From Clostridiaceae bacterium (GTDB lineage: Bacteria; Bacillota; Clostridia; Acetivibrionales; DULL01): 64,000 bases of DNA. Positions 2,942 through 32,547 of this stretch are shown in pieces. The number at the start of each line of letters is the position of its first letter. Within the stretch, counting starts at the first letter, position 1. The notes under the pieces are model-generated. The model did not search any database. It was not told the origin of the DNA and saw only the letters and a program-made list of their open reading frames with translations. The DNA lies in contig DULL01000050.1 of NCBI GenBank assembly GCA_012840395.1, positions 1 to 64,000 on the forward strand, written 5' to 3'. Position numbers and translations under genes: made by a program.

Positions 2942-3586
2942 TTAATCAAAGTGTTTCCAATATGCAAGTATTATTTCTTCAACTTTTGAGTCCGAGGCAA
3001 TGTTGCTATTTATTACGGCATTATCTGATTTGTCAAAATCAAAAATCATGACAGTTCCATCCCCTACAAGGTACCAACCTTCCAGTATCTCATCACTGTG
3101 TCTGCTTTTAGCTTCTTCAAATTTTGGTTTATATGCATTAAATACAGTTTCTGCATCATCACCAACTTTGATTCCCATGTCAGTCTGAAAATCCGGATTT
3201 TTTGATGTAACACTCAGTACCTTCCCTGTCGTTTCCCCTATCCTTATAACAATACCATTATCATAACTCCAAACAGTTATATCCTCACCCATAATCCCAA
3301 AATAATCAGGTTCAGTAGATTCAATATAATTATCACCAAGAATATTGACAACCATTTCCGGGGAATATCCCAGAGATATTCCTCCAAGGCTTGAAACATT
3401 TGCAGTCTCTTGATTTGAAGCATCAGAACTATTTATCTCGTTTTTGTCCTTTTCAATTTCATTTTGGTTTTCGGATATTTTATTTTTGTTATATTCGATT
3501 CTATTTTTTTCATCAACATATTTAGAACAACCATAAAGTATAAGCAGCGACACTGTTAGAACAATTAAAATTGTCTTTTTTATCAT
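2942..3586 (-). CDS. Small lipoprotein of unknown function
   Basis: The 214-residue product starts with a lipoprotein signal peptide: KK, a hydrophobic core, and a lipobox LYGC with the modified Cys at about 20. An Asn/Lys/Glu-rich linker (25-65) follows, then a compact domain (about 68-200) beginning LGGISLGYSPEMVVNILG. That beginning, a helix-strand unit before a TVWSYDNGIVIRIG hairpin, recalls small exported DUF4309-like or SmpA-like domains, but I cannot assign a family. The ribosome binding site AAAAGGAG lies 9 bases before ATG. It follows the small ORF at 3603-3815 by 16 bases, suggesting an operon. Confidence 0.65.
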   Translation of the reverse strand: MIKKTILIVLTVSLLILYGCSKYVDEKNRIEYNKNKISENQNEIEKDKNEINSSDASNQETANVSSLGGISLGYSPEMVVNILGDNYIESTEPDYFGIMGEDITVWSYDNGIVIRIGETTGKVLSVTSKNPDFQTDMGIKVGDDAETVFNAYKPKFEEAKSRHSDEILEGWYLVGDGTVMIFDFDKSDNAVINSNIASDSKVEEIILAYWKHFD

Positions 3587-4019: not shown

Positions 4020-4560
4020 TTAATTATTATAAATTCTGTACAAGAATACTGCTGCTTCTGCTCTGGTGGTTTTACCTAAAGGATTAATCCGGATTCCATC
4101 ACCTTTTATTAATCCTTCTCTTACTAAGGCTTCTATGCTTTCTCTTGCATATGCAGCAATTTGTTCATTATCACTAAACTTATTAATTTCTGTAATAGAT
4201 GAAACTTTGTCTATCATATTCAGCATTCTTAACGCTCTTTCTGTCAATACCATCATATCCTGTCTTGAGATGGTATCTCTTGGATTAAATAAGTTATTGC
4301 CCTGACCTAAAGCGATACCTAATTTCCGTGCAATACCTATAGCTTCATAGTAATAGTCTCCTTGTTTAACATCTTCAAAGTTTTCTTCAAAATCAGCATT
4401 CAGGCCAAGTGTTCTGACTAACAGCAGTACAAAATCTGCTCTGGTAATGTTGGCATTGGGAGCAAACTCTTTTTCATTGATACCTTTAATGATTCCTTTC
4501 GAAGCCAATACTTCAATTTGTTTCTTAGCCCAGCTTATTTGTTCAATATCTTCAAAGGTT
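4020..4560 (-). other. Three SLH cell-wall anchoring domains of the giant protein
   Basis: The last ~180 residues hold three SLH units, recognisable by WAKKQIEVLASKGIIKG, the ITRADFVLLLVRTLGL and ISRQDMMVLTERALRM helices, and TTRAEAAVFLYRIYNN. In Firmicutes, SLH triplets bind pyruvylated secondary cell-wall polymer, which places the rest of the protein outside the cell. Confidence 0.9.
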
Positions 4561-7500
4561 TTCTTAACATATACTACTGCAAACTGGCTGAAATGTGTAA
4601 CACTGAACGTTACCATACCTGTTTCGGGATCATAACGTCCATTACTTATGGGTATGACATTTCCTGCTCCGTCAATATACCATACAGTGATATGCTCAGG
4701 GTCAGCCAACTCTTCTTTGGTAGGCTTATAAGGAATAGACACTTGTACCGGAGCGTTTTTATTCTCCCAATCTATCTTTTTGCCATCTATTTCTAATTCT
4801 AACTTAATAAGTGGTCTATTGCCTATTTCTGCCTGTAATTCTTCTGACAAACCTGACTTATCTCCTGGAGCTACTATTAAAGATACCTTTTTATCCTTGA
4901 TCCTTGTTCCCGGTGAAAGCATGTTGGACGGTAAGATAATAGTAGCAATTTCAGTTTTTATTACAGTTGCATTACTTAGTTCTGTGGAATTAATGGCGCC
5001 TGAGGGCATAGTAAGCTTATATGCCACAGCATCCTCAACAACCGGTATATCAATGGTAACTGTCTTAAGTCCTGTTTCATCAGTTTCTGTATTCTCTAAT
5101 ATATCCCCTAGAGTAGCTTCATCAATTTTCGCTTCGGCGATATTTGTATCACTGTCAATCTCCAGTTCAATATTAATATTAATATCACCGTTGCTCACTA
5201 CTGCATTTAAGTCAGATTCTTCTTTGCCTGTATCTGGTTTTTCTTTGTCAGGACCGGTTTTATCCTTATCAGGATCAGGCGGTATTATAATTATACCTCC
5301 TCCACCTCCAGGAGTCTGCATTATCATAATGTTATAGGTTGCAGTTTTCCCATCTATTGTTATAGTCAATGTTTGAGATACTACAGGTCTGCTGCTATCG
5401 AAGCCACTTATGTTATTGACTGTTATTTGAAGTACTGCGGTTGTACCGTCGCTGAATGTTCCTGTTACAACTAAACCACTTATATCAAGTGCTTCTCCTA
5501 CATAGTAGGTCAACTTGCGTGCAGGAGAAGTTATTTCTATTCTTTCTAATACTACTACTGTGAAGTTAATTGTATAAGTCTTGGTTGTTGCTCCATCAGC
5601 TGCCGTTACTTGGATTGTTGCTGTACCTGGCAAGCTTGCTGCCTGGGTTACGGTTACAGCGGCGTTAGCATCTGTTGCTGTTGCTGTTACTTCGGGTACT
5701 TCTGTTGTTCCATATGGCAGAACTATATCATAATCTGTGATCAAAGGATCAAATCCTTCCACAGTCTCTCCATCCACCTTCAACTCTCTCAGGCTTGCAT
5801 CGGTGTTAGCTGCCACGGTGAATCTGATTGTATAAGTCTTGGTTGTTACTCTGTCAGCTGCTGTTACTTGAATTATTGCTGTACCTGGCAAGCTTGCCGC
5901 CTGGGTTACGGTTACAGTGGCGTTAGCATCTGTCGCTGTTGCAGTAATCACAGGTACCACTGTAGTTCCATAAGGAAGAACTTTATTATAATTTGTGATA
6001 GAAGGATCAAACCCATCTATAGTCACTCCATCTATCTTCAGGTCACTCAAGTTTGCATCGGTATTAGGTGCTACTATAAACTTAACAATATATATCTGCT
6101 CAGTAATTCCATCAGCAGCTACAACTCTAATCGTTGCTGTACCGGTTACACTTCCTGCCTGAGTTACAGTTATAATTGCATTGATATCATTTGCTGCCGC
6201 TGAAACCACAGGAACTACTGTCGTTCCAAAAGGAAGTTTCACTGTATATGCATAAACTCCCGGATCAAATCCGCTTATATCTGCTCCATTTACTTTTATC
6301 TCCTTTAATGTAGCATCATTGCTGCTTGCTACATTAAAGTATACAGCATAAGTATTCCTGGTTATTCCGTCTTCAGCTGTAACAGCTACCACAGCCACAC
6401 CTTTTGCTGTTGCAGCCTGTGTTATCTTCACATCCGCCTTACTGTCGCTGGCAATTGCACTTACCTCAGGCACTTCTGTCGTTCCTGAAGGAAGAGTTAC
6501 ATAATACTCAAACACATTCGGTGCAAATCCTGCTATCAACTGGCCATCAACCATCAGGGCAGCTAACGAAGCGTCTTTGCTATATACAGGACCTGTACCG
6601 GTTATTACTACCTGCTGTGCTGTCGTCGGCTCACTGTATACTCCCAAAAGATTTACCGATCTGGCTGATATCTGGTAAGTACCAGGCTGGTACAATAACA
6701 AGCTTGCACTGAATTTTCCGTCTTCGTCAACCGGCAATAATGCAGCCGGTGCTTCATCTATCAGTATGCAAACTAATGGTTTGCCGTTAACCGTTCCTTC
6801 AACTTTAACAATATTAGGAGTGGAAGTCTCCGGATCATGTACAATAAATTCATATGGTGCTTCTGGAATTGAAGTATCCAGAACAAAGGAAATCGGGCAA
6901 GAATAGGTCAACTTATTATAGATTGGTTTTCCGGATTCTACTTCAGTCCAGCTTTCAATTTTCCATGAAGCTCCGGGAACATTATCAGGGAATTTCCCTG
7001 TAATACTATACAATCCCGGATTGAGATTAGTTCCTTCTATTGTTATGGAAACAGTTCCCTGGTATTTGCCGTCAGGTATATTTTCCGGTACATCTATCTG
7101 CCCAATTACTCTAGTTCCTCCTCCTGCCGGCAGATATACGGGTAAATCGGTTCCGTCCCTGCCCGTGAAGGTTATAACTTCAACAGGTATGATATTTCCG
7201 TTTTCGTCTGTAAGATCAGTGATTGAGTAACTGATAGTATCAATATCGTATTTCATTCCGGTTTCAAAAATCTGGACTTTAAATGCAGCTTCCCTGTCTC
7301 CGCTATAAACCTCTCTCTGCACAATAATTTCAGGTACAACGCCTAAATCCGGGATCTCCAGAACACCCACTGTATAACAGGTATCAAGGCTATCTTCCGG
7401 TACTGATACACTTACTGTATATTTTCCTCCTGAAGGATTTGTTATCCTGATATAATCACCGTTATTATACAGTTTGCCTACCTCAGCATTGCTTATATTA

Positions 7501-10500
7501 TTAATTATCGTTCCATTTTCTGTATTAAGTGTTACAGATATAATATTGCCATTGGGATCAGTAAGGCTCCATTCTAATCCGGCACCTGGTTGTGCTGCCA
7601 GGAAGAGCCGCAGCTCTCCGGTGGTTCCAGATACATTGAATTCCTGCCTATCCTGTTCACCTGCGCCTATCTCCCTGCCCAAAGGCTGTGAAGTCTTATA
7701 ATTTGCGCGTACAGCATCTATTTCTGCTCTGGAACCTACAAAGAAGTAACTCAGGTAAGGTCCTTGCGTTCCTCCGATAGACATTGTCCCTGGTTCGGAA
7801 ACATCGAACATCACGGCTCCAAAAAATCCACCTGCGTCAACCAATGTCGACCTAGGAATATAGAAAGGAATGTTGAGGACTGTTGTTTCACCGGGCAGTA
7901 TTGAAACAGAATCTCCGTCATTTACGCTGATCAGCCCTTTATCATCGAATATTAGCAAATAGGGAGCAATATCCAAAGTTCCGCTATGGTCATTCCTGAT
8001 AACAAGTATCGCACTGCTTTCGGATGTATTACCTCTTTCCATTACTACATCCGGAATCTGGAAACTCCTCGCCGTCAAGGGCAGAGGCGGGTCAATCTTA
8101 CGCCATTTATCCACAGCTTCCAGTACATTCAGAACTGACTGTGCCACGCCCACTTCACGGTTGAGAGTGTTGGCAATTACCATATAGTTATTGGCCAGTT
8201 GCTCTCCTACGATAGAATTTAGCGAACCTTGCCGCTGAGCAAGAGTGCTCTCCCACATTCCAAGAGCATCATCGTAGTAGCCGGTTATGGTATCTATTCC
8301 CATGCTTACCGCAGTACCTGCTATACCTCCGCTTAAGCCACCCATCATTCCCATCGTCAGGTTAACTATCATACCCATAGTCTTATAGGTTTCTATCATG
8401 TAGCGCTCTTCAAGCAGGCTGCTGCCGCTTGCCAGGGTCATGTAAAATTCGTTCTGAGCGCGGTAAGTTTCTCCAAGATTGTAGTTCAAAGGTACTATCT
8501 GGTCATCATATCCGTCATAGAGCCAGAGGTTGGGATAATTACCCAGTTCCCACCCGTTCTCCAGTTTTGTATTGACACTCTTTAGGTAATTTATCAATAC
8601 TTCAGTGGGATAATATGAAGGAGTATCAGCAGGATGTTCATAAACTTCAAGAATTGCCCTTGCCTGGTCAAGCAACTCAGTGACCTTTTCCTGCATCTCA
8701 AAAATATCAAATTTTTCAGCTCCTTCAATTTCATTTCTTATTTCCAGTACCATTCTTTCCGTGGACTCAGGTATGAAGTTTCCGTCATCTCCGGCAAGAG
8801 AATTCCTGCTTACGTCCGCATAGAAGGGTAGGTACATGATTGCTTCGGTAAGCAGCCGCTTGGTTCTCTCACTATCTATGTTAATTTGCTGCAGTTCACT
8901 GATGAATTCATTCATTTGATCTTCAGGAATTTCCCTGCCACCGGTTAAGGCATATATTTCATTCACATAATTCTGCAAGAGCTGCCCCATCTTATCAGGA
9001 GCATATCCTTCCATACGGGCATTATATGCAAGATTTCCCAGGGACTCTGCCCATTCAGGCAGAATATCAAAAACAGCTGTTAATTCCTTCAGATCCGTAA
9101 GAGCGTTATATATATCAGTTATCTTGCCCAAATTCGGAGCTCCAAGGTCAATTATCTCCACATCAATATGATTTTCAAACAGATGCCCTTCTATCTTTGC
9201 CTTACGACCTTTCAGTTCCTCAAGTTCCAGCTCACGTTCATACTGAGCCTGAACCAGCTTCAGAGGTTCATTGGCAAGCAGGACCTTTTCAAGATATACT
9301 TGCCTAAGCTTTTCCAGAAGAGCTTTCACTTGATCGTGTGCTTCAAGGATTAAACTGCTCAGGGCACTTTCCGCCAGGATTTGGTTCTCCTTTGCCGCTC
9401 TGAAGAAATCCTTACCCATATTAATCCATACTGTCTTTTGTTCACCTGTATGCATCTCGGCAGAACTGAAAGCAACTCCCGCCTGCTCCAGATAATAATC
9501 AGCTTCTTCCTTGTACGAGGTAAATTCTTCTCCCTTTACCTCCCAGTAAATAAAGATGCTATCGTTTAAATGCTCAATAAGGCTGTCTTCTTCTTTTTGC
9601 AATGTTCTTACTGCTGCAATAGACTTATTGATTGCTGAAGGCCTTTCTTTTTTGATTTTTTCCAATTCTTCCTCTATCTGATCAATTTCTTGTAATATTT
9701 CCTTTCTCTTAGTCAGGTAATAGGCCATTAACGCAATATCATCCTCAGTCATGCGGTTCAAAGATTCAATCGTCGATAATATCCTTGATGATTTTTCAGG
9801 AGCTGATTTTAGCAACGAATTCATGTTGGATTTAAGAGCATCCTTTAAACTATCCCAATAAACACTCTTTGTATTAAAGTATATGGGGCTATTCAGCAGA
9901 CTCTTCTGAGAATCAGCCTCCATAGGATTGTCATAAAACTCAATGGGTAAGTCATAATTTGTTTCGCCGTCGTCCTCCTTGAAGAAATCGATGAGACTTC
10001 CTGTTTTGGGTTTGAAAGAATTAGCAAAATTAATTAAATTGATAAAGGCTTTGGTGTGGTTTATCATGCTGCTCCAGGAAACTACTGCCTGCTGCTGCCG
10101 GGCGAAATCAAAAGCATCTACCACAACTCCGCCCAGGTCACTTCCTGCTCTCTCCATTATTTTATGGAGGTTCTCTTCCAGCCTGTCAATTTCATTTCTT
10201 AATTCGTCAAAGTCACTGTAGTAAGCCCGTTGCATGGTAAGAGGCACTGTAATAATATTAGGATTGAATGGACTCCTCTTTGTTTCCACAGTAATAGTAG
10301 GCAATTTCGCTATATTTTCAAGGCCGGCACCCATAATTGTGAATTTTCCTGCCGCTGTTTCACCCGGCTGAATATTACCCACATTCAGGGATCCTCCTCC
10401 CTGCCTTTCACCTGCATAATCTGAATAAGAGGAAAGCACCTGGATTATCTGCCCTTCGATCATCCCCGGTATGGAGGGCATTCCAAAGGTTACATTACGG

Positions 10501-22500: not shown

Positions 22501-25500
22501 TAAAAACTGTCTTCATTGGCGGGCATGGTGGTATCGGTATAGACAGTATCTTTTGTCTGTCCGATAAGTTGAAAGTCCCCTTCGCTGGAAAAGGCTCTAT
22601 ATATATTGTAATGGTCAATATCGTCCAATAGACTTCCAGGCTGCCAGGTAAGAATGACTTTCAGCTCTGACGGACTTCCGGCAAGTACCGGAGCTATGGG
22701 TGCTTTATTGTCAACGGTATATGTTCCGGTAAGAACAGCTTCATTACCGGCTCCATCCCTGGCAGTGGCTTTAATGTAATATATACCATCAGGTATTTGA
22801 TCTAAGGTATACCATATGGTGCTTCCGGAAGTATCCCTCTGTATATCAGTCCATGATTCTCCATCATCTGAGTAGGCAAAATCTACAGCTGCAATACCTA
22901 CATTATCCGATGCTACTACAGCTATGCTTACGTTTCCGTTAACTTTGCTGCCCTCTGCCGGTATAAATCCTGAAATTACAGGAGGAGTTTCATCTGGCAG
23001 GACAATTACTGTATCTGAGATAACAGGCATACTTTCATGTCCATAGGTATCAACGGCAGTTACCTTATATGAATAGTTTCTTCCTGCTTCTACATTAGTA
23101 TCGATAAAGGACAGAAGATTAGTTTCCTTAACAAGTACATATTCTCCTCCTTCTGTACTCCGGTAAAGCCTGTAAAAGTCCAGATCGGCATCATTAACAT
23201 TTTTCCAGGATAAATCTATCCTCATTTCTCCTGCTACGGCATTGATATACTCCGGAGCCTCGGGGGGACTGGTTCTGATATATATAATAGTAGATAATGG
23301 AATACTGACATTGCCAGCCTGGTCAAAAGCACGGATCCTTACTTCATAATATCCGTCAGACAAGCCTGACGTATCCCAGAAATAAGAAACAGTAGTTTTT
23401 ACATTTCTTCCGCTGTCAACCAAAACTGGTTCAAGTTCATACCAGATATTGTTTTCGTTATACGCAAAGGATACTGTTTTTACTCCTATATTATCAATTA
23501 CTTCAGCACTAAGCTTTAATATGTCTCCGGTTCGGGAAGTCTTAAAATTGGATGCAACCGGTGGAGTAATATCGGAAAAAGGAGTAGCTTCGGCAGAATC
23601 CGAACGTTCACCTTCATTTCCGTAAATGTCCACGGCTAAAATCTGGTAACGGTATGGTATTCCTGCTTCTACATTAATATCTTTATATGTTGTAACAGTA
23701 TTTTTAATATTGTCAGCTATAAGTACATATTCTCCCCATTGATCTCCCACATAAGTACTACGGTAGATACGGTAATATTTTATATTAGTTCCGGTAACCG
23801 GCTTCCAACTTATATTCACTTCCACCTCAGCAGGTTCTGCCGCAACTTCAGCTGGTGCAGCCGGTATGACCACATTGGCTGTAAATTCAACCTGGGCGGA
23901 TGCATGGCTTGACAATCCGGTAAGGGTAAATGTATGTGAACCAGGATGGACATTTTTTACAAAACGCCAGCTAATAATGACGTTGCCGTTCATATCTGCC
24001 GCCTTGCGGGCTATAAAAGTATCTCCGTCCATAACGAGTTCAGTGCTCTCTCCTGGTTTATATCCTGAACCTGTAAAGATTAATGTCTCCTCGGGACCAG
24101 CTGTCTCAGGTGACAATGTCAAAACAACCTCGTAATCCTTGACGGTTACTTCTATTTCCACGGATTTTTCGCTTTCATTGCCTAAATCATCAAAAGCCGT
24201 AATAGTGTAATAATATGTGGCTCCAACACTTACATTAGAATCTATATAGGATAATATATTCTTCTCAATAGTCTTAATATTGGTCCATTGACTGCTATCT
24301 GCGTGACGCCGGTAAATCTTATATCCGGCTATGTCATCTGAAATTACAGCACTCCAGGAAAGATTTACTATACCAGAATGTGATAAGGCAGAAAAGCCTT
24401 CCGGCACAGGTGGCGGAGTATTATCCAGTATAAGATTGATAATTATGGAGTCCCTGTTCCCTCCCTTATCAATTACTTCAGCCTTAACCCGGTAAATCCC
24501 GTTCAGACCTGCAGTATTCCACTCGGTATTTGCACTGTAAACATCTCCACTTAACAAAGCAGTAACTTCTTTAATAATAGTCCATTCATCACTATTCTGA
24601 GGTGCATAAGAGAATATAATTTTTTCTACTTTATAATTATCACTTGCTTCAGCAGTTAAATTAACCTTTCCGGAGGTTCTGGTTCCATCTGTGGGACTTA
24701 TACTTAACATTTCCGGAGGGATTGTATCAAATATAGGCTCTGCACTGGCTATTTGTGAAAGGGCACTTTCGTTACCCAGATTATCCACAGAGGAAACTGC
24801 GAAATAAACAGTTTCACCGGGAGTTAGGTCTAACTTGGTTATAGTTGTTATGTCGCTATTAACTGTTGTCCAATAGGCTAAGCTCTCTTCACTGGCACCA
24901 TAGTACACTATATAACCCTTCAAATCCTCTGCCGTAACCGGCTGCCAACTAAGCTGCACAGAAAGCACTCCTGCTATAGCCTCAACACCAGTTGGAACAG
25001 GAGGAGCTTCATTATCAAATCTATATGTTTTAATTAAAGGTTCACTTTCATTGCCCACAGAGTCCCTGGCAACAGCCCGTACCTGTATCTCTCCATTTAA
25101 ATTTGAAGAATCCCATATGAAGGTAGTTGTTCCCATGGTTGCATTGGTAGCAATTTTAATCCATTCAGAACCATCTATAGAATAGGACAGGGTAATGCTG
25201 GATAAGGCAAGATTATCAGTAGCTGTAACCGTTATATTGGATGTTTTTCCGAATAAAGTGCCCTCTTCAGGCTGCATAGCAACAATAGCCGGCGGCACTG
25301 TATCTGATACTGCAGCTGCATAAGCAATGTTAGAATCCATACTGGTTAATCCTACGGCATCAGTTGCAGTGACTTTATAATAATATGTCAGACCGACCTG
25401 AACATTGGTGTCCTGCCAGCTGGTATTGGTACGGCCGTAGTTGGTTCTTATTAAATTATATGGGCCTTCAACACTGTTGGCACGATAGATATAGTAATGG

Positions 25501-28500
25501 GAAACATCTGTATCCTGCGGTGGCTCCCAGGACAGATCAATTCTTTCGGTACCGTAAGTGGCTATGAGATTTTCCGGAGGTCCAGGAGGTGTCAGGTCAA
25601 CCTGGTATTCCGCTGTTATTTCGGACCAATTCCCCCATTTGTCGTACACCTTGTAACGCACACTTAATGAACCCGTAGCTAGGTTTTCTGCCGGTATTTC
25701 ACCGGTAAAATAATATCTATTATAATAATCGGTGTAAGGGCCGGCCACTGAATCTACAGGATTCCAGTCAGAACCGTTTAAAGAATATTCCATTGTAGCC
25801 GAAGCGCCTGTTCTACCAGAATTATCGGTAAAATATACACTGAAGGAAAAGCTGGAAGAAGTTCCTCCAATTGTTGTCTGGGCTGCCGGACTGACAAAGG
25901 ATATGCTCGGCGGTGTCTCATCTTCCGATGTTGTGGCTTCGACAGCTTCACACCTTGCTGTATTTCCAAATGTGTCAACAGACTCCACCAGATAATAATA
26001 AGTTGTGGCGGGAAGCAAGCCAGTGTCTGTATAATATGTCTGGTTTTTACTATAAATATTGGCGATGCTGTTATAGGGACCTTCGGGGCTGTTACTGCGA
26101 TATATGGTATATGGATAGGTGGATTTAAGATCCGGATCATCTACAGGATCCCATTCTATCGTAATACTGCTTTCTCCGGCTGATACAAGTCTCAGATTGG
26201 TTACGGCACTTACTTCAAGATCCAGAGTCCAGGGTGTTTCTGTTATTAGTTCGCCTACATTGCCTGCCCCGTCCACCGCCTTCACTTTTATTAGATATGA
26301 ACCTGAATTTAAGCCTTCGGTATTCCAATAAAAATTGGTGTAGAATGAGGCTCCGCTCCTGCCAAAGTATAATTTTGATATGCCCTGTGAGGACCATGTG
26401 GCACCTTCATCATAAGAATATTCTGCGTCCATTGACACAACTTCCTTGTTATCGGTGGCATAGGCATTAAAGTATATACCTGGTCCTCCTGTGGATGTTC
26501 CACTCCCTGGGCTATATAATTCGATTTCAGTTACCTCAGGGGGAGTCATGTCATCCATAGGCTTTGCAGAAACTATTCCAGATTCGCTGCTATTTCCCCA
26601 GCTGTCATATGTTATGATTTTATAATAATAGGTGGTACCTATTGTTCCTGTTTTATCTTCATAAGTAGTACTAGTCCTGGTTCTAATTGTTGTCAGCCAC
26701 GAATAACTGCCGTCAATGCGATCCGACCGGTATATCTCATACCTGTCGAAATCAGTATCCGGTACTGCATCCCAGGTCAGGATTACCTTCCCTTCTCCAG
26801 GGACAGCATTTAAATTTGCCGGGGTGGAAACATTAACATCAAGGTTTATATTACGAACAGCATAGGTGCTGTTTCCTGAATTATCTTCAGCTGTAAACTT
26901 CAATAAATACTCTCCTGAAACAAGCCCGTCAGTATACCAGTAAATGGTCTGGGTATAATCGCTGCTCTGGGAGGTTGACGATAATACAATTGTCCAGGAC
27001 TCTCCGCCATCAACGGAGTATTCAAACTGTAATTTCTTAAATCCTTTGGGGGAATTATCAGTTGCCCTGAATGATAACCTGACGGTTGGACCTCCTAAGG
27101 TCAAACCGTTAGTAAGAATCACATTGGTTGAACCAATATATGCATTCAAACTTCTAATTTCAGGAGGTGTTACATCTGGCAGTGGAGAAGCTGAAGCTTC
27201 GTTGGAAAAGCCGCTTTCATTACCAATTCTATCTTCCGCGGTAATTACATAATAATAGGTAACTCCAGCCTGGACTTTATTATCTGTATAACTTGTGTAA
27301 GATGTATATGTAATGTACTCATACCCCTCTCCGGGAACGGTTGACCTGTAAATATTGTAAGGGCTGCTTGCAAGGTCTGTTTCAGTGTTTGCAGACCAGT
27401 TCAGAATTATTCTGTCTTCTGATGGAGTGGCTGTTAAATTAACAGGTGCCGCCGGTGGAGTATTATCAAGTACCCATATCCTTACAGGGGTTCCGTTAGA
27501 TGCATTGCCTGCCCGGTCATAAGCAATAGCCCTGAATTTATATGCTCCGTCTTCAAGTTTCCCCAGGCCCTCAATATCTGCAGTGGTATCCCAATAATAG
27601 TAGCCGTAGGAATAACTAGAATAATGGGTCATCTCATCTTTAATAATTGAGCCTATAGTATACCAGGTATTTCCATCATCAGGTGATGCTTGTATTTCTA
27701 TATGTTCTATCTTTGAGTAGTATCCATCACTTGCCTGTACATAAATTGACACTCTTTTACCGCCAATAGTGGTATTTTCATTCGGTGTGAAACTGTAAAT
27801 GGTGGGAATCTGGGTATCCAGAATTACTGTCTGAATTTTTTTATGAGTTCCGCTTGTATTGGAAGCAATAACCGTTATTGTATTTGTTCCCTCTGAAAGG
27901 TTAATAACCTGGCTGAAAAATCCTTCATCGTCTACTGATACGCTTTCTCCGTTTATTGTAACTTCCGCATCGGGTTCTGTCTGACCTCTTAAGGTATATA
28001 CACTGTTGTTTGTGGCAACATAGGGGCCTCCCTCAAGCTCCAGGTCAGGTCCCTGGTAGTGCTCCCCATAGGTATATGACTTATCGCCCTGGTTGCCTAT
28101 ACTGTCAATTGCTTGTACAGAGTATCTGTATACCGTGTCTTTAACTGCGTTTGCATCAAGGAAGCTACATTCAGGTTCATATATATACCAGGAATCAGAG
28201 TGATACCAGTCATCATCACTGAAATATTCCCTCACAAGATAATATCGATAGGTTCCGGGCATACTGTCCCAGGATAAATATATTCCCCCAGGGACATTTT
28301 CTGCCTTAAAGTTCGTGGGAGCATCTGGGGCTTTCCGGTCAACGGTTACTGTATGGAGCACATAGCTGGTTATATCCGAAATATTGCAAGCCGTTGCCCT
28401 TACCTGATATACTACTTCCACATCAGAAGGCAGTTCCCAATTTCCGCTGACACTATAATAATTATTACTCTTTTTAGGTACAGTATTTCCCTCATTCAGC

Positions 28501-31247
28501 AGTGTCCAGTTTTCCCCGTCAGTGGATATCTCTATCTTAATATATTTGATTTCCTGGCTGTCAATAAAGGTGGCTGAATAATATATGGTATAGTGACTGG
28601 TTTCGGTTCCATCTGCAGGTACAAAACTGTAACATATTGGTCCTTCAACGGGAATTACTCCAAACTTTGATTCAGAACCTGATGAAACATTTCCTGCTCC
28701 ATCAACGGTCAAAATTCTGTATTCATATTCTAATCCGGGTGTCACCAAGGTGTCGGTGTATGTATTATCATTAATGTAGTTAGCAATAGTAGTCCAGGAC
28801 TCATCCCTGTACATGCGGCACTGTATATAAGCATAGTCAAAATCCTCAGGAGGATTAACCCAGCTTAAAACCAGCACTGAATTTTCAATGTCAGCCTGTA
28901 CTGAAAAGTCTGTTACATTTTCCGGAGGTATTGTATCCTTAAGCAATTTTATACTCTGTGAACTATTATTGCCTAACTCATCATATCCCACCGCTTGTAT
29001 CCATATATCTCCATCCGGTAAGCTGCTCAGATTAAACCTGACTTCCCGGTAACCTTCATTATAATATTCATACCAATAAAAATTATAATCATATGTTACT
29101 AACGGTTCCAGGGACTGCCAGTTCTCTCCGTCAGTTGAATAATTGAACAGGATATCCGTCATCCTGTTTTGAGCAGCAAAAACTGCTTCAACCCAAAAAT
29201 TGTCTACATTGTATACATTGATGAAATCATAGTCTGTAAGATACCAGTCCAGAAAAGTAAAAATGTCTTCCACATTTAGTTTTCCTGTGGCTACAGGTTC
29301 ATTTTTACTCTCGTTCCAATAATTGTCACGTACAACTATTTTATATAGGTATGTTTTATAGGGATATACATCATAGTCTGTATATGAACTATCCTCATCG
29401 TAATATACAGTTCTTATGTGGCTCCAGTATTGTTCTGATGACTCGCTGTCATAAACGCATTTATAGATTTGTGCATAATATATATCATCTGGATGCTCCC
29501 AGCTGATTATCAATGCATTATTTTCCTCATTTGGCATTACGGTAAGGTTTTTTACATTTTCCGCCACAGTTTTAACAATCAATTCAGTTTCTTTTGAAAA
29601 AGTATTTCCCTCCGAATCTACAGCCGTTAGTTTTAAATAATAGGTTCCGTCTTTAAAGGATGTCATATTTGCTTCGATTGCCCGGTACCAGTAGTTGTCA
29701 TAACTTTCATATTTTACTTCTGTATCCCAAACCAATAAATCATCAATCGAATGCCAATCGCTCTGATCAGAGGAATACATATAATCTATGGATATTATGT
29801 CATTTTCAGCTGCAAATTCTGAATAAATATAGTAATAATACCTGTTGCCTGAAGTGACAATTCCATAATCGCTCAAGTACCATTCTAGCAGATAAATTGG
29901 ATCACCCTGTATAATTCCTGTTGCTGTCGGAGGGTTCTCTGCTTCATTTCCATAGCTGTCACAAGCCACAACCTTATATAAATATTCCTGATTGGGATAT
30001 ACATCATAATCTATATAAGATGTACCATCTGTGCTGCCCAGGTAATACCAATCACCATAACCGTCTCCGTGATCCTCATATCTGTAAATATCCACATAAT
30101 CAAATTCCTCAGGATTGGTCCAGCTCAATACCAGGCCGTAGCCTTCTTCATTAGATTCAATGGTCAGATTCTGGACATTTTCAACAACCGCTACATACTT
30201 TATGACTGTTTGTTCATCAGGCAGTTCGACAGTCAAGGTATTTTCAAATTCATCCGTGGCAACAGCCTTAAGAAAAATCCGGCCGTTGGGAAGTTCAGAG
30301 AAGTCAACCATTAACCCTCTTGCCCATGATCCATAAAAGAATTCTATTCCATAATCATCTATAATTATAGAACTGTCTATATCCACCCAGTTGGAACCAT
30401 CCAGGGAATAACTGTATTCTATTGATGTTATTGTATGCAATGAATTAAAGAAAGCTTCAAAAGTCCAACCATTTTCAATATAATAGGAATTTATTATGCC
30501 CTCATTTTCCAGGTACCACTCAGATAAAGTTATTGGATTTTCTGTACTTAGAACATCAATTGATTGAAGCTGCTCCTGGTCATTTTCACTTTCAATTAAA
30601 TTATTATGTATATCACGCTGGTCATTATCACTGGCATTATCTGCATTATCTGTATTATCTGTGTCCCCTGTATCTTCTTTATCCTCTGTATATTCATTAT
30701 TTTCTGTATCCGCTGCATTATCTGTGTCCTCTGTATCTTCTTTATTTTCTGAATCATCTTCAATTACATCATTGTTATTACCTATATTACTATCTTCGCT
30801 CTCACCGCTCTTAATATCATCAATATCATTTTCTGTTTCATTTCCGTTGTTATTATCAATTGTATAATTATCCGTAATACCATCATTATCATTGGCTAAA
30901 ACAATATTGTTACTATTATCATCATTACTATTCGTGTCATTGTCATTTTTTTCTATTTTATTATCTCCAAAAGTTCCTGCATCATTTTCTCCAGGATCAA
31001 TAGTGTCATCTCCATTATTCTCCTGTGAAGAAGTATGTTCCTGCCTAGATGTATCTTCCTGCTTGGAAATATCTTCTGCGGCATTAGACGAATTACCTGT
31101 ATAAGATTCAATATTATAAAGAACTTCATTACTCTCTGCAGCTAAGGCAAAAGGAATATAATCTCCCAGCATATTAAATAGGAAAAACAGTATCATCAAG
31201 CAGCTGATTGCCCTATACAGGAATCTACGTGGATATGACCTCTTCAT
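4020..31247 (-). CDS. Giant (9,075 aa) S-layer-anchored multidomain surface protein
   Basis: A single open frame encodes a ~1 MDa exported protein. Approximate order: signal peptide (1-37, ending FALAAES); acidic Asp/Asn/Glu/Thr tail (45-230); about 15 FN3 domains alternating with Ig-like domains (230-3380); superblock A with PKD at ~3480-3560, four CARDB and mixed Ig/NEW3-like domains (3380-5000); a connecting region (5000-5270); superblock B repeating that order (5275-7005); an alpha-helical domain (7006-7720); Ig-like domains (7720-8215); four 86-residue cadherin-like repeats (8220-8564); a Big_3-like domain and a Gly/Pro/Lys linker (8565-8680); a region of unknown type; three SLH domains (about 8898-9075) expected to bind pyruvylated wall polymer. 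The RBS AGGAGAGG precedes ATG by 6 bases. No catalytic domain is visible. Adhesin, scaffold or cell-spacing roles are inferences. Confidence 0.95.
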   Translation of the reverse strand: MKRSYPRRFLYRAISCLMILFFLFNMLGDYIPFALAAESNEVLYNIESYTGNSSNAAEDISKQEDTSRQEHTSSQENNGDDTIDPGENDAGTFGDNKIEKNDNDTNSNDDNSNNIVLANDNDGITDNYTIDNNNGNETENDIDDIKSGESEDSNIGNNNDVIEDDSENKEDTEDTDNAADTENNEYTEDKEDTGDTDNTDNADNASDNDQRDIHNNLIESENDQEQLQSIDVLSTENPITLSEWYLENEGIINSYYIENGWTFEAFFNSLHTITSIEYSYSLDGSNWVDIDSSIIIDDYGIEFFYGSWARGLMVDFSELPNGRIFLKAVATDEFENTLTVELPDEQTVIKYVAVVENVQNLTIESNEEGYGLVLSWTNPEEFDYVDIYRYEDHGDGYGDWYYLGSTDGTSYIDYDVYPNQEYLYKVVACDSYGNEAENPPTATGIIQGDPIYLLEWYLSDYGIVTSGNRYYYYIYSEFAAENDIISIDYMYSSDQSDWHSIDDLLVWDTEVKYESYDNYWYRAIEANMTSFKDGTYYLKLTAVDSEGNTFSKETELIVKTVAENVKNLTVMPNEENNALIISWEHPDDIYYAQIYKCVYDSESSEQYWSHIRTVYYDEDSSYTDYDVYPYKTYLYKIVVRDNYWNESKNEPVATGKLNVEDIFTFLDWYLTDYDFINVYNVDNFWVEAVFAAQNRMTDILFNYSTDGENWQSLEPLVTYDYNFYWYEYYNEGYREVRFNLSSLPDGDIWIQAVGYDELGNNSSQSIKLLKDTIPPENVTDFSVQADIENSVLVLSWVNPPEDFDYAYIQCRMYRDESWTTIANYINDNTYTDTLVTPGLEYEYRILTVDGAGNVSSGSESKFGVIPVEGPICYSFVPADGTETSHYTIYYSATFIDSQEIKYIKIEISTDGENWTLLNEGNTVPKKSNNYYSVSGNWELPSDVEVVYQVRATACNISDITSYVLHTVTVDRKAPDAPTNFKAENVPGGIYLSWDSMPGTYRYYLVREYFSDDDWYHSDSWYIYEPECSFLDANAVKDTVYRYSVQAIDSIGNQGDKSYTYGEHYQGPDLELEGGPYVATNNSVYTLRGQTEPDAEVTINGESVSVDDEGFFSQVINLSEGTNTITVIASNTSGTHKKIQTVILDTQIPTIYSFTPNENTTIGGKRVSIYVQASDGYYSKIEHIEIQASPDDGNTWYTIGSIIKDEMTHYSSYSYGYYYWDTTADIEGLGKLEDGAYKFRAIAYDRAGNASNGTPVRIWVLDNTPPAAPVNLTATPSEDRIILNWSANTETDLASSPYNIYRSTVPGEGYEYITYTSYTSYTDNKVQAGVTYYYVITAEDRIGNESGFSNEASASPLPDVTPPEIRSLNAYIGSTNVILTNGLTLGGPTVRLSFRATDNSPKGFKKLQFEYSVDGGESWTIVLSSTSQSSDYTQTIYWYTDGLVSGEYLLKFTAEDNSGNSTYAVRNINLDVNVSTPANLNAVPGEGKVILTWDAVPDTDFDRYEIYRSDRIDGSYSWLTTIRTRTSTTYEDKTGTIGTTYYYKIITYDSWGNSSESGIVSAKPMDDMTPPEVTEIELYSPGSGTSTGGPGIYFNAYATDNKEVVSMDAEYSYDEGATWSSQGISKLYFGRSGASFYTNFYWNTEGLNSGSYLIKVKAVDGAGNVGELITETPWTLDLEVSAVTNLRLVSAGESSITIEWDPVDDPDLKSTYPYTIYRSNSPEGPYNSIANIYSKNQTYYTDTGLLPATTYYYLVESVDTFGNTARCEAVEATTSEDETPPSISFVSPAAQTTIGGTSSSFSFSVYFTDNSGRTGASATMEYSLNGSDWNPVDSVAGPYTDYYNRYYFTGEIPAENLATGSLSVRYKVYDKWGNWSEITAEYQVDLTPPGPPENLIATYGTERIDLSWEPPQDTDVSHYYIYRANSVEGPYNLIRTNYGRTNTSWQDTNVQVGLTYYYKVTATDAVGLTSMDSNIAYAAAVSDTVPPAIVAMQPEEGTLFGKTSNITVTATDNLALSSITLSYSIDGSEWIKIATNATMGTTTFIWDSSNLNGEIQVRAVARDSVGNESEPLIKTYRFDNEAPPVPTGVEAIAGVLSVQLSWQPVTAEDLKGYIVYYGASEESLAYWTTVNSDITTITKLDLTPGETVYFAVSSVDNLGNESALSQIASAEPIFDTIPPEMLSISPTDGTRTSGKVNLTAEASDNYKVEKIIFSYAPQNSDEWTIIKEVTALLSGDVYSANTEWNTAGLNGIYRVKAEVIDKGGNRDSIIINLILDNTPPPVPEGFSALSHSGIVNLSWSAVISDDIAGYKIYRRHADSSQWTNIKTIEKNILSYIDSNVSVGATYYYTITAFDDLGNESEKSVEIEVTVKDYEVVLTLSPETAGPEETLIFTGSGYKPGESTELVMDGDTFIARKAADMNGNVIISWRFVKNVHPGSHTFTLTGLSSHASAQVEFTANVVIPAAPAEVAAEPAEVEVNISWKPVTGTNIKYYRIYRSTYVGDQWGEYVLIADNIKNTVTTYKDINVEAGIPYRYQILAVDIYGNEGERSDSAEATPFSDITPPVASNFKTSRTGDILKLSAEVIDNIGVKTVSFAYNENNIWYELEPVLVDSGRNVKTTVSYFWDTSGLSDGYYEVRIRAFDQAGNVSIPLSTIIYIRTSPPEAPEYINAVAGEMRIDLSWKNVNDADLDFYRLYRSTEGGEYVLVKETNLLSFIDTNVEAGRNYSYKVTAVDTYGHESMPVISDTVIVLPDETPPVISGFIPAEGSKVNGNVSIAVVASDNVGIAAVDFAYSDDGESWTDIQRDTSGSTIWYTLDQIPDGIYYIKATARDGAGNEAVLTGTYTVDNKAPIAPVLAGSPSELKVILTWQPGSLLDDIDHYNIYRAFSSEGDFQLIGQTKDTVYTDTTMPANEDSFYAVSAADELGNESARSNIVQLRPGKDITPPEIDKFEPLSSTPLRGEVLLTVHAVDNVGVEKYIFYYSFTGTGMDSNGDIDTDTDTDAGSGTGEVVWTVLGEIESTGEEDVVLLWNTLAAGTEGEPLYPDGNYQVKVIAVDVNENRSERIHEYTLANNPPAPPQDLRVDAAEWKLVVSWAPINRADVDHYKVYRMEEGGSWELIVNYTTSTVYVDKKCDPAKTYYYRVSVVNDLDRESELSDIVSGRSLHQTTLPVITELNPAEFSRFNSNAVITVKVSDLVGIASIKYEFAILGDSTFIPDDLVWHEIADVIPTLEGNSYMSTLNWDVSSLPPGYFALKATAINYGNIENTLIKRYLIDRIPPDAPTEVTVTDPQSGGELAISWNRSIAEDTDHYEIYRSEDPNGTFEKIGETRSLVYRDIGLINGKTYYYIIKAIDGAGNASDFTQWVGAIPTAKSDLAMLEVTADPIAPAYGRSAKLAAIVTNFGFARAKGIVIFTLGEGENSEEIGRTEIVLGQGERGEAVINWTVPQGISSPARIYAQVNTDTDTVDIDENNNQAVQTFRLNKPPVAEIIVPDSVKSGEMVTLDGSSSKDDDGSIVSYMWSTGDGNIEKKGSISTHMYQIPGEYTIELTVRDNDNCESKATATINVSENRPDLIVTDISWMPLDPLEGDTVQINVTIGNQGYGTANMGFLVGFYIDGKYMGYRKVEQHLEVGQTINVPFSWVATPGIHVLKVVANDLLDNLKETTLENNSKTCALSSQAVNFPDVEVVSVTWSPDDKLELSSEEPFVYRVRIANKGSSAAERFFVSLYIDGQWQAKQHVNYLSPGSTLDLSFVLKPLSGSHTITAKADDPVPVLVELETNNNSMSVKTPEFSVTYPKLAIGDITWRPVETVLTDGTSLTIETKVANISALDITHRFWVDFLVDGILIKSLPVDRLAAGEEKELWVRWPVTPGVHTIQVIADSQSTVCEGDYGTIKEAETPELELIYPDLTITDITWSPLTLKYGRMVSFVVRVSNQSVATVFDSFYVSLYVDGERVTGRRVDGLRGHSTAIVGLTWGSNLVGTHNVKVVIDDENKLTLSPPGPDTRRVWERTFEIEDALMMKVKSPKEDPDLRYAIYTTGSDYIPVSAELYLGSNTANKLGPQEGISVSYILDPADENAEVITGYLGFDSNKREFKGEIPILRLETGMYTLILEGTDGIETVTQDVDIMIIRELIGLIDTDKDEYQREEIVTFSGVLRYKDGTPAANIATAAIKIDNTYYPVQVDEEGRFEYSKVFAPGDFFAQITVDQMSCGYTDFTVWGLYTKPSNLTFVASKNSQFPVVIEVFNPTTGRAVTGLTAQLIDLTPGSNVRVTLDTSTLGTVIPSEESASVIMNVNAPLDVSDTAEYKIIFSTAEGATATTNIKLLLRPAVPFPVLDTYSFFLASNPGKSLARTVKLTNKGLGRMTDIRIVPPATLPWVIPQGLGDTELEPGEWTTFDILVSPPENTPLGYYQDKITLTDGKYSVSLDIGVEVTTANTGSVSFLVQDEGGVRVSNAEVTLISKEPYVKIVGGKESYYYQNYLARTDENGIATFDDKPIGDYRYIVRSLGTRTLDGETQIMPASEATLVTVTVENEPVKIEWTVTPTTIADEYDIQLKMVFGANLPKPKLGIMPPWINIPTQVEEPMIFEATVVNLSLIAITDVVAEVVRENFTDTGISIVGGGYIGELAAHESAKIKIRVAPGRYIMNSDNEKGPLNFIRFHGNYVSFDPDTGLPMYPPEGIEAKIPLCNPTPQKVEIEIRRDEEEESIKMEMNMGSGLKMTGGGPPAVGSGSGDGSGTGAGVYEIMTLTLDQKANLERQAFNATLKITNGYGSKALENLSVRVVITDLDGNEVTGNMFIIPTGLSGMAALDGSDSLSPAKTMVADWQLIPGEGLGGTDPDGQVYLAKAIISYYIDGRYVETQTQSEEITIVPQPKIILHYYLPKEVTAGEPFRLGVIAENIGDGWGRNLTIDSGQIKIESNQAGVLADIRIIGTSFGSYGGGGFRLTLGDIPPHGQVGGYWIVKWTSYEDTQDYSRPPKGEFREFTATLSHRDYKGVQLNPLIVGVTTEIIGRDNLFADAVDPDMALTLIDEGYTGFPSHLINMKYGIRLPVYVPESLEVTKQPEPLDRTLMFRVPAPEGDPMAPDTPHYQVLLLKDPLPGVSIRSVQRIVEGNESLNATLSYNNVWKANGNIYIVDEIPRDNEQYYQCSYLVDFRSGAQITAVEYAQWAFEGLASDWEKDRYLVWYDIGHLPDEGDKVSIRACVYNTGSDSESGIVEFFIVKEDSDQEIKIGQGSFSLEPLYNQYVYTEWTSEEGGNYKIIARIKNNDSPEATGETLMQVNYRPYADAGVDFFTDVLTPTRFDGTRSFDKDGFIVSAIWDFGDGESAGGLTPTHKYLNSGTYKVKVTVTDNNWASSTAEMQITVRETRADLRVTDIRISPDSPEEGEIVTVTGTVYNGGYAVTDKPFLVSFYVDYKYQNYVRIMDPIAPGESRNVAFTWVNTPGNHMFTIKANDFGHPVDEADFENNQRSIPLDTDHAYFPNVKVNSISWGGPINGRCGWNDTVTITAEIENDGTADAESFNVAFLIDDEMVWTQRVPGLSSSPGSNKVIVGMDWKVTKPGIHTIRVVADSPIPHLVELSQEDNALEIETPDIRLIYPDITIKNMDFSPNNGVLRPGQPLVILATVVNNGETSTNSPFTVTFYAGGQYLGIKEIGELGGKQEANIAFVWNRPQPGINVVRAIIDERDDIKETDEENNTFEAVTPEMYVKLPELTVESVETLPPTGTAKFGDTLITSVQLKNTGEAPINIGFTTALFVNNKQVGSFITSNGLQPGETTVGTIEWKAETVPTSPYYKLAVFADVSGAVNLANREKATFNTVYTVTGALEIDGWSERETWTVAEKPVFKLLARSTDEPWRLLGPENGVSATIYVYDFENVVEGITEGEPLWNGNMTYDILEGAFVGEIEPSLIGEGLDPGNYWAYVVAQRGEEEAASAIPFKLVQDYSVTVNIEKTTYNVDEPILMNGQVLDTEGNPLPGIPVMLRVVGEEEFICDSEYNEEEGKLVPLVSDEEGKFTSSLLLPYGYGGTYSLTAFANFGGAEKASNSRVFYVEGPYLAMPQEIKITQGYSVKQEVSITNVGTINLTGFEFSSQFPEGADLSAALTGNIPELLGPARQETFTLEISAASDAEPGEYETIFTVQTREGYFTSMSVKIIVEEAVPKYSIDVNGEQARKIVAAALKPGETSTQIVHVANIGTAPIVDIHVTPPAKLPWVTISASGTELVLPIKGRTIRDENTIASILVTITPEIQVPPGTYNDEIIITSNAGDAKVPLTIYVGPDKVGTIVLQIVDQDYIPVPEAVVTLYGPHSTPGEQPATPVVHRGTTYYDGTVTFMNIQAGTYTLTARAAYHNDVQMTLEVPALIDLEPLPVQMEKIPFTLSYDYRTLIETQSAIVTGGNYEDAVLRATMPPAAAIPSLEANFPGSEFWYTYQLSEAGNNFAVRNPSTEGSVYDVEARIADQDEALPEGSIRLRFKNQVGGTSVLSLGEFGPEAVEEIYWDVDLEKFYDPADILPMEAEWDYQVIFPEGTTPERIAAWEKILGYNHTVLKLDYNEETGVYQYHIVPKNTVAQPYIPDNRIPKFYGDNYIFDFNIQFTGNRFTTSGEWESISYKVPVRLHYQPYDAISVPVPADDKQETKVMAAFTKQSKTPPAQKKRTYPWYPPTKAQLRAWQMYEQGEGDSRYFSKNFLEFITSVPKEKPEQIGPAIGDLSFSQEVVTEQEVFTAKFNLFNPSKYKLLENVKLEVIVTDGTIDENGRLSEGARIYNNRFNIRPLIAINGKSISSEPGEPGEPDVEDGDYDDSLGNGIYNWVVMPESELSVLWQLNADPGLAETRMFNDELDSKLLDLAEYIQNAGTYTAYIRYSFILEGQLYEGYTKGQRIKIEPQPKLFVSYALEKQEGEIYDLIIKATNAGEGTARNVTFGMPSIPGMIEGQIIQVLSSYSDYAGERQGGGSLNVGNIQPGETAAGKFTIMGAGLENIAKLPTITVETKRSPFNPNIITVPLTMQRAYYSDFDELRNEIDRLEENLHKIMERAGSDLGGVVVDAFDFARQQQAVVSWSSMINHTKAFINLINFANSFKPKTGSLIDFFKEDDGETNYDLPIEFYDNPMEADSQKSLLNSPIYFNTKSVYWDSLKDALKSNMNSLLKSAPEKSSRILSTIESLNRMTEDDIALMAYYLTKRKEILQEIDQIEEELEKIKKERPSAINKSIAAVRTLQKEEDSLIEHLNDSIFIYWEVKGEEFTSYKEEADYYLEQAGVAFSSAEMHTGEQKTVWINMGKDFFRAAKENQILAESALSSLILEAHDQVKALLEKLRQVYLEKVLLANEPLKLVQAQYERELELEELKGRKAKIEGHLFENHIDVEIIDLGAPNLGKITDIYNALTDLKELTAVFDILPEWAESLGNLAYNARMEGYAPDKMGQLLQNYVNEIYALTGGREIPEDQMNEFISELQQINIDSERTKRLLTEAIMYLPFYADVSRNSLAGDDGNFIPESTERMVLEIRNEIEGAEKFDIFEMQEKVTELLDQARAILEVYEHPADTPSYYPTEVLINYLKSVNTKLENGWELGNYPNLWLYDGYDDQIVPLNYNLGETYRAQNEFYMTLASGSSLLEERYMIETYKTMGMIVNLTMGMMGGLSGGIAGTAVSMGIDTITGYYDDALGMWESTLAQRQGSLNSIVGEQLANNYMVIANTLNREVGVAQSVLNVLEAVDKWRKIDPPLPLTARSFQIPDVVMERGNTSESSAILVIRNDHSGTLDIAPYLLIFDDKGLISVNDGDSVSILPGETTVLNIPFYIPRSTLVDAGGFFGAVMFDVSEPGTMSIGGTQGPYLSYFFVGSRAEIDAVRANYKTSQPLGREIGAGEQDRQEFNVSGTTGELRLFLAAQPGAGLEWSLTDPNGNIISVTLNTENGTIINNISNAEVGKLYNNGDYIRITNPSGGKYTVSVSVPEDSLDTCYTVGVLEIPDLGVVPEIIVQREVYSGDREAAFKVQIFETGMKYDIDTISYSITDLTDENGNIIPVEVITFTGRDGTDLPVYLPAGGGTRVIGQIDVPENIPDGKYQGTVSITIEGTNLNPGLYSITGKFPDNVPGASWKIESWTEVESGKPIYNKLTYSCPISFVLDTSIPEAPYEFIVHDPETSTPNIVKVEGTVNGKPLVCILIDEAPAALLPVDEDGKFSASLLLYQPGTYQISARSVNLLGVYSEPTTAQQVVITGTGPVYSKDASLAALMVDGQLIAGFAPNVFEYYVTLPSGTTEVPEVSAIASDSKADVKITQAATAKGVAVVAVTAEDGITRNTYAVYFNVASSNDATLKEIKVNGADISGFDPGVYAYTVKLPFGTTVVPVVSAAANDINAIITVTQAGSVTGTATIRVVAADGITEQIYIVKFIVAPNTDANLSDLKIDGVTIDGFDPSITNYNKVLPYGTTVVPVITATATDANATVTVTQAASLPGTAIIQVTAADRVTTKTYTIRFTVAANTDASLRELKVDGETVEGFDPLITDYDIVLPYGTTEVPEVTATATDANAAVTVTQAASLPGTATIQVTAADGATTKTYTINFTVVVLERIEITSPARKLTYYVGEALDISGLVVTGTFSDGTTAVLQITVNNISGFDSSRPVVSQTLTITIDGKTATYNIMIMQTPGGGGGIIIIPPDPDKDKTGPDKEKPDTGKEESDLNAVVSNGDININIELEIDSDTNIAEAKIDEATLGDILENTETDETGLKTVTIDIPVVEDAVAYKLTMPSGAINSTELSNATVIKTEIATIILPSNMLSPGTRIKDKKVSLIVAPGDKSGLSEELQAEIGNRPLIKLELEIDGKKIDWENKNAPVQVSIPYKPTKEELADPEHITVWYIDGAGNVIPISNGRYDPETGMVTFSVTHFSQFAVVYVKKTFEDIEQISWAKKQIEVLASKGIIKGINEKEFAPNANITRADFVLLLVRTLGLNADFEENFEDVKQGDYYYEAIGIARKLGIALGQGNNLFNPRDTISRQDMMVLTERALRMLNMIDKVSSITEINKFSDNEQIAAYARESIEALVREGLIKGDGIRINPLGKTTRAEAAVFLYRIYNN
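5556..6588 (-). repeat. Four tandem 258-bp repeats encoding cadherin-like domains
   Basis: Each unit is 86 codons, opening with a (T/N/K)DA(S/T/N)L motif and ending near TYxIxFxV. Boundaries fall near 6588, 6330, 6072, 5814 and 5556. The two units nearest the C-terminus (5556-5813 and 5814-6071) are nearly identical over long stretches, sharing for example GTACCTGGCAAGCTTG and CTGGGTTACGGTTACAG, so they duplicated or were converted recently. Confidence 0.85.
8085..10230 (-). other. Alpha-helical/coiled-coil domain inside the giant protein
   Basis: Residues about 7006-7720 switch from beta-rich to helical, with heptad-like segments such as IDRLEENLHKIMERAG and ILQEIDQIEEELEKIKKE. Near its end (8276-8385, residues ~7622-7658) is a hydrophobic, glycine-spaced stretch containing MGMMGGLSGGIAGTAVSMGI. 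I recognise no family; it may be a rod, an oligomerisation unit or a membrane-active segment. Confidence 0.7.
10235..15420 (-). repeat. Superblock B of the giant protein, homologous to superblock A (about 16250-20810)
   Basis: Both blocks run PKD, four CARDB domains (each starting with a (P/R)(D/N/E)(L/V/I)xV pattern), Ig or macroglobulin-like domains, an LPWV-containing NEW3-like domain, a carboxypeptidase-regulatory-like TGSVSF/VGTIVL domain, and a QPK(I/L) domain. The paired motifs PPATLPWV / PPAKLPWV and IVPQPKIILHYYL / IEPQPKLFVSYAL mark the equivalence. Sequence identity is low to moderate, so the duplication is old. Confidence 0.75.
22241..22270 (-). repeat. In-frame hexanucleotide microsatellite (Asp-Thr repeat)
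   Basis: The plus strand reads about four units of ATCTGT ending in ATCTAT. On the coding strand this gives (Asp-Thr)4-Asp, inside a Gly/Ser/Asp insert between YYSF and EVVWTV of one Ig-like domain. The six-base unit keeps the frame whatever the copy number. Confidence 0.7.
30586..31104 (-). repeat. Low-complexity repetitive DNA encoding an acidic N-terminal region
   Basis: Degenerate short repeats related to TCTGTATTATC and TCTTTATC fill this part of the gene. They encode runs of Asp, Asn, Glu and Thr at residues ~48-220. The strongest repetition is between 30640 and 30760. It lies just after the signal peptide, at the free end of the surface protein. Confidence 0.7.
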
Positions 31248-31656: not shown

Positions 31657-32547
31657 ATGAGTATTAATAAACTTAAAATGCTTGGCAATGGTCCCTACCC
31701 TTTACCAATAGATCAATTTTTCAAAAGTGTGGATACATTTGTAAATTCAGACCTTTGTATCATTGCTACAAAACCCACTATTGATTTTCCTGTAAAAGAT
31801 TCCCACACTCATTACAGTTATGAATTTATTATACCACATTCACCAATACCCTATTTAAGTATAGAAAATAAATGTTTTTCAGCTAATGAAGCCAGTATAT
31901 TTCCTATAAACTCAGGACAGGCTCACGGTCCTCATGATCGCATGATTAATAGAAGTATGACTGTATTGCAGGTTGACAATAATTCTTTAAATGATATTTC
32001 CTATTCAATTTTCAAGAAACTTAATCCTTGCTTTAAACATGGCAATTACCCTGTGACCAATGAATTGAAATCCCTGATAGAATTATTCATTGAAGAATAT
32101 AGAAACAATCATTCCAGTCGCGGATTTATACTTAAAAACCTTAGTATACAGATAATGGAACAATTATTAAAACAGATTGAGAATAATTTTTCTTCTCTTT
32201 CATTATCAAGCTATAAAACTGATAAAAAATATATTGATAATGCCATTGAATATTTGCGATATCAGTATGACAAGGATTATTCCCTGGAAGAAGCCGCACG
32301 GGTGGCACATTTATCTCCTTTTCATTTTATCAGGGTCTTTAAAGAATACACCGGCAAGACTCCTTATGAATATTTGCTGCTTATCAAATTAAATAAGGCA
32401 AAAGAACTATTAAGTATGCATAAGTATTCTATAACAGAAATTTGTTACATGTGCGGATTTAACAATTTAAGCAATTTCATTTCCTTTTTTAAGAAAAATA
32501 TAGGAGTTACTCCTTCTGAATACCGTAAAATCATGAGTAAAAAATAA
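31657..32547 (+). CDS. AraC-family transcriptional regulator
   Basis: The 296-residue protein has an N-terminal cupin-like sensing domain (about 20-130, including DSHTHYSYEFIIPH, whose His residues fit a cupin strand) and a C-terminal double helix-turn-helix (about 195-296). The second half shows the classic AraC signature: YSLEEAARVAHLSPFHFIRV, F(K)EYTGKTPYEYL, KAKELL, ITEICYMCGFNN, and FKKNIGVTPSEYRK. It is expected to bind DNA as an activator responding to a small, perhaps sugar-like, ligand. The start is supported by AAGAAGGGTGAG eight bases before ATG. It is divergent from the giant surface-protein gene. Confidence 0.9.
   Translation: MSINKLKMLGNGPYPLPIDQFFKSVDTFVNSDLCIIATKPTIDFPVKDSHTHYSYEFIIPHSPIPYLSIENKCFSANEASIFPINSGQAHGPHDRMINRSMTVLQVDNNSLNDISYSIFKKLNPCFKHGNYPVTNELKSLIELFIEEYRNNHSSRGFILKNLSIQIMEQLLKQIENNFSSLSLSSYKTDKKYIDNAIEYLRYQYDKDYSLEEAARVAHLSPFHFIRVFKEYTGKTPYEYLLLIKLNKAKELLSMHKYSITEICYMCGFNNLSNFISFFKKNIGVTPSEYRKIMSKK

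Follow-up and report, generated by a model that had tools for sequence, protein, structure and literature searches.

The window, a 64,000-nucleotide stretch of contig DULL01000050.1 from a Clostridiaceae bacterium, carries a giant gene on its minus strand (4020..31247). The gene is a single intact open reading frame of 9,075 codons with an ATG start, zero internal stops and zero N. The encoded protein of 9,075 residues was computed to have a mass of 1,001,764 Da (1.00 MDa) and a pI of 4.3, bearing out the uninterrupted frame of about 9,075 residues and 1 MDa claimed in a preliminary description of this DNA. A ribosome-binding-site-like GGAG is located a few bases 5' of the ATG, and the codon preference of the gene correlates with that of 20 neighbouring genes at 0.95. 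Given the 7.4% stop frequency of the +1 frame, the probability of such a frame by chance is about 10^-303, and a chance origin is ruled out.

The divergent neighbour of the giant gene encodes an AraC-type regulator (31657..32547, plus strand), and a 66% identical gene is found at the same place in the genome with the nearest orthologue (G011). No conserved operon was found around the giant gene past this AraC neighbour, which is itself clear in G011 and represented by only 34% identical homologues near two other members. Directly downstream lie two minus-strand open reading frames of 304 and 214 residues (1890-2804 and 2942-3586) with zero Pfam matches, and further on a 299-residue protein with LysM domains and HEAT repeats (840-1739, minus). 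Elsewhere in the window, a RadA-like ATPase frame and a GH15-like frame (48751-50178 and 50103-52049, both minus) overlap by 76 bases as listed, and one of the two start sites is probably placed too early.

The domain census, made with Pfam and a self-trained HMM, gave 16 FN3, about 16 Ig/Big_7-like domains alternating with FN3, 2 PKD, 9 CARDB, 4 cadherin-like, 2 NEW3-like, 1 Big_3 and 3 SLH domains, in close agreement with the approximately 15 FN3, many Ig, two PKD, at least eight CARDB, cadherin-like repeats and SLH triplet proposed earlier. The protein begins with a signal peptide called by eye (aa 1-36, 31140..31247, with a hydrophobic stretch at aa 9-27), as expected for the exported protein proposed earlier, followed by an acidic D/E/N-rich linker (aa 37-237, 30537..31139) and an alternating Ig-like/FN3 array with the 16 FN3 domains (aa 238-3365, 21153..30536), the N-terminal part of which differs among members of the family described below. 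After a tenth CARDB-like stretch seen by eye (aa 3,370-3,478) come the first PKD domain (aa 3482-3566, 20550..20804), four CARDB domains (aa 3570-3995, 19263..20540) and the best-conserved block (aa 4020-5190, 15678..19190), which is all-beta and has few Pfam assignments (NEW3-like at 4345-4430 and a weak CarboxypepD_reg). A fifth CARDB domain (aa 5194-5269, 15441..15668) precedes the second PKD domain (aa 5301-5365, 15153..15347), the second set of four CARDB domains (aa 5371-5789, 13881..15137) and a second copy of the beta block (aa 5800-7009, 10221..13850). A helix-rich segment (aa 7010-7715, 8103..10220), weakly conserved in its first half, leads to conserved beta domains that end the core (aa 7716-8218, 6594..8102), and the C-terminal part consists of four cadherin-like repeats (aa 8226-8565, 5553..6572), Big_3 (aa 8576-8640, 5328..5522) and three SLH domains (4050..4559). 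All of these features lie on the minus strand, and the order PKD, four CARDB, beta block, CARDB, PKD, four CARDB, beta block, helical segment, beta domains is thus present in one frame.

The PKD-CARDB-beta unit is duplicated, with aa 3502-4579 aligning to aa 5303-6416 at 26% identity (E 2e-80), as had been suggested. With a signal peptide at the N-terminus and an SLH triplet at the C-terminus, the product is by its sequence an SLH-anchored surface protein, in line with the original assignment. No known catalytic domain was found in it by Pfam and NCBIfam scans. The suggestion that it may be a scaffold is unsupported in the cellulosome sense: Pfam detected no cohesin in the protein, and a genome search found none in the window genome.

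AlphaFold models were built from the window sequence and three relatives, that is, from shallow alignments. The region aa 4,020-5,210 was predicted to be all-beta with a mean pLDDT of 64, and aa 7,000-8,190 to consist of long helices and then beta structure with a mean pLDDT of only 45; of the helical domain of about 700 residues claimed earlier, the predicted helix richness at aa 7010-7715 stands, at a model confidence too low to define a fold. Foldseek searches with both models returned generic Ig strings at query TM-scores near 0.1. Because the shallow alignments led to low model confidence, these matches were taken as Ig strings and nothing further. A profile search (E up to 1) found no sequence relative of aa 4,020-5,210 in the PDB. 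An alpha-2-macroglobulin-type trap was considered and ruled out, as the window protein contains no C-G-E-Q-like thioester motif and only 21 cysteines. A membrane hairpin in the helical segment is likewise unsupported in the window protein, where the best KD value is about 1.2; some relatives reach 1.5-1.8.

Judged by sequence, the window protein is not an orphan but a member of a family of giant proteins in which the core is conserved and the anchors are swapped. The core (approximately aa 2,680-7,000 and 7,480-8,218) is collinear with proteins of 6,600-11,600 residues, and collinear giant frames were found in 15 genomes besides that of the window, several genomes holding 2-4 giant copies. The closest protein, in G011, is 71% identical over 7,255 residues, and distant members align along the whole protein at 32-42% identity over about 4,500-5,600 residues. 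In comparison with these distant members, identity across aa 3,078-5,478 is 31-63% when scored in 100-residue steps, and gap fractions there do not exceed 0.07; gaps in the core are few up to about aa 5,978 and commoner in places further on, and aa 7,078-7,478, the bulk of the helical segment, shows almost no conservation among members.

A search with a 511-residue core segment gave 10 positive genomes among 58 of the order, 6 among 391 sampled from the class and 4 among 398 sampled from the phylum, the window genome being counted each time. In the genomes searched it was seen only in giant frames or their fragments; frames with a full match have 6,607-11,566 residues, apart from a piece cut short by its contig (G050) and the broken copies of G028. 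The helical segment was matched in 11 genomes from a set of 100 relatives (again including the window's own), mostly in giant frames, the others being contig-limited or shorter. In a profile search of contigs with alignment A1, PKD matches dominated, and among the matches listed only L049 (Clostridium sp. MAG), L050 (Dethiobacter sp. MAG) and L051 (uncultured Clostridia MAG) are clear relatives. Carriers are mostly cellulose-degrading clostridia and sparse in other classes. They include putative Pseudobacteroides cellulosolvens (G028) and putative Acetivibrio thermocellus, formerly Clostridium thermocellum (G045). In the former (L165-L168), two of three giant copies are broken into several frames, and one split copy is joined to, or follows, a membrane-protein stretch that is unrelated to it. 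In the latter (L045/L046, about 1,498,900-1,499,100), the signal peptide and first FN3 domain are out of frame with a 6,899-residue body. A repeated motif, GG.HKVILSG..Q.V.F......FNILE.KN, lies N-terminal to the core in G045, G004, G042d and G028b; the window protein shows no sign of it. This motif possibly forms a different outer tip.

The members diverge past the conserved end of the core, at aa 8,218 in the window protein. The tail is SLH in the window protein, G045 and G054. It is Dockerin_1 by Pfam in G236, G814 and G037b, by eye in G815 and G004, and below the Pfam cut-off in G028c. G037a ends in CBM5/12 and CBM2, and G042 in InlB-like repeats; in the remaining members either no anchor was recognised or the frame reaches the end of its contig, as in G011 and G635. 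Cohesins were found in all six genomes with dockerin-tailed giants (3 to 81 matches), and neither cohesin nor dockerin was found in the window genome, with its SLH tail, or in a carrier from another class (G635). As 12 of the 16 genomes searched have cohesins, the link between dockerin tails and cohesins is tentative.

The dN/dS ratio between the window gene and its G011 orthologue was 0.195 overall, with 0.19-0.33 before aa 3,001, 0.09-0.13 in the core (aa 3,001-7,000), 0.20 in aa 7,001-8,000 and 0.36 in aa 8,001-9,000; the value of 0.83 in the final bin is unreliable because G011 stops at a contig edge. On these ratios, the giant gene is shown to be under purifying selection. Since an open frame of 9,255 residues from a second genome can be aligned along the window protein and the overall dN/dS is low, a collapse or frame artefact is an unlikely source of the 27-kb frame.

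In a phylogeny built from 1,091 central residues, the G635 protein, from another class, is sister to the window and G011 proteins with support of 100/100. Its identity to the window protein over these residues is 77%, versus 47-54% for other members of the window's order. For TsaD, in contrast, the G635 protein is 59% identical to that of the window genome, versus 71-72% for five genomes from the window's order. The MraY encoded about 7 kb from the G635 giant gene shares 70-75% identity with its counterparts in seven genomes of the family to which G635 belongs, versus 47% for the window genome, and the core is absent from all eight other genomes searched in that family. Contamination as the source of the G635 copy is ruled out by this adjoining native MraY. 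Because a genome of a different class has a close copy next to native genes, the 27-kb gene is shown, on phylogenetic grounds, to have moved laterally between classes.

The reading we favour, with moderate confidence, is that the window protein is a C-terminally anchored extracellular megadalton fibre whose body is conserved and whose outer stalk varies, serving attachment or display. Support comes from the signal peptide, SLH triplet, collinear core with low dN/dS and only beta structure in its model, swapped tails, cohesin pattern and lack of known catalytic domains. The protein would be exported by Sec via its signal peptide, and the SLH triplet would seat on a cell-wall polymer. Dozens of beta-sandwich domains and the helical segment would then form a rod of fixed composition, from which the FN3/Ig array would take the N-terminal end outward and hold the cell to a surface, other cells or matrix, or display ligands. 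Dockerin-tailed relatives may reach the same location by plugging into cohesins, and the tail of the CBM-tailed relative may grip polysaccharide. At about 4 nm per domain, the window protein, if fully extended, would span roughly 0.25-0.3 micrometre. The label "adhesin" is one that we infer. A pure spacer or adhesin fits the core poorly: repeat stalks usually differ in repeat number, whereas long parts of this core contain almost no indels. In a plain spacer one would not predict that domain count and sequence are held so tightly.

That same strongly conserved, nearly indel-free core, together with the SLH anchor, would also suit a structural role in the envelope, as a component or organiser: the core would associate laterally with itself or the S-layer into a sheath, and adhesion would be secondary. 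However, dockerin- and CBM-tailed relatives fit an S-layer sheath badly and the family is patchily distributed, so we regard this alternative as unlikely. Somewhat more doubtful still is an unrecognised enzyme, trap or membrane-active part in the core blocks (aa 4,020-5,190 and 5,800-7,009) or the helical segment, with the remainder serving display. The best-conserved block, to which Pfam assigns almost nothing and for which the PDB offers no sequence relative, leaves room for such a function, but its model resembles only generic Ig strings, the thioester motif is missing and cysteines are few, and the helical segment lacks membrane-spanning hydrophobicity. That the frame is decaying or an artefact and yields no product, as the broken copies in putative P. 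cellulosolvens and the N-terminal frame change in putative A. thermocellus might suggest, is very improbable given the intact window frame, the collinear frames in 15 other genomes and the low dN/dS.

Beyond the favoured fibre, we tentatively raise the possibility that this laterally mobile, apparently undescribed megadalton family has a body of about 5,000 residues with a specific, conserved function other than spacing, and that exchange of the anchor (SLH, dockerin or CBM) re-targets it in different hosts. If so, some members would be among the largest known cohesin-docked proteins. Giant bacterial surface proteins are commonly viewed as repetitive and lineage-specific; in this family, members from different classes share a conserved core of about 5,000 residues, much of which shows few indels, the 27-kb gene has moved laterally and the anchors are interchangeable. 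Members in A. thermocellus and P. cellulosolvens (both putative assignments), which are cultured cellulose degraders, make the family open to testing. The preliminary description had called the architecture possibly undescribed, and this holds in so far as no published description of the family, A. thermocellus included, was found in the open literature, subscription journals and preprints being mostly outside that search and absence being no proof; the architecture is, however, family-wide rather than confined to the window genome. The family is one of giant modular surface proteins and is apparently undescribed.

How does this family compare with known giant surface proteins? SiiE, the giant adhesin of Salmonella, is composed of Ig-like domains. 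Like the window protein, it is a very long extracellular protein; it has a mass of 595 kDa, is a type I secretion substrate of a Gram-negative bacterium and, in the available part of that account, differs from the window protein in lacking an SLH anchor (PMC6272769). Instead of SiiE/LapA-like type I secretion and a Gram-negative retention module, the window protein has an N-terminal signal peptide and SLH domains. The anchoring scaffoldins of cellulosomes are, like it, large, SLH-anchored surface proteins of the same bacterial group, some with FN3, but cohesins, absent from the window protein, are their defining modules, and they are far shorter (PMC5590126, PMC6780208). Proteins of more than 5,000 residues with extracellular Big, cadherin and dockerin domains are a recognised size class; the available part of that study does not name the window family, its main text does not contain "Clostridi", and dockerin is stressed there for Planctomycetota (PMC11573180). 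Giant1-5 of Apilactobacillus kunkeei are secreted proteins of 3,000-8,000 residues built with alpha-helical repeats or beta-solenoid tips; their C-termini are SH3b-like, where the window protein has SLH by Pfam; an FN3/PKD/CARDB core and an SLH or dockerin anchor are not among the features described in the accessible part of that report (PMC12863079). As is proposed for the window family, they are elongated and are thought likely to attach by the C-terminus and bind by the N-terminus; they too show signs of exchange, in their case between genera (PMC12863079, same part).
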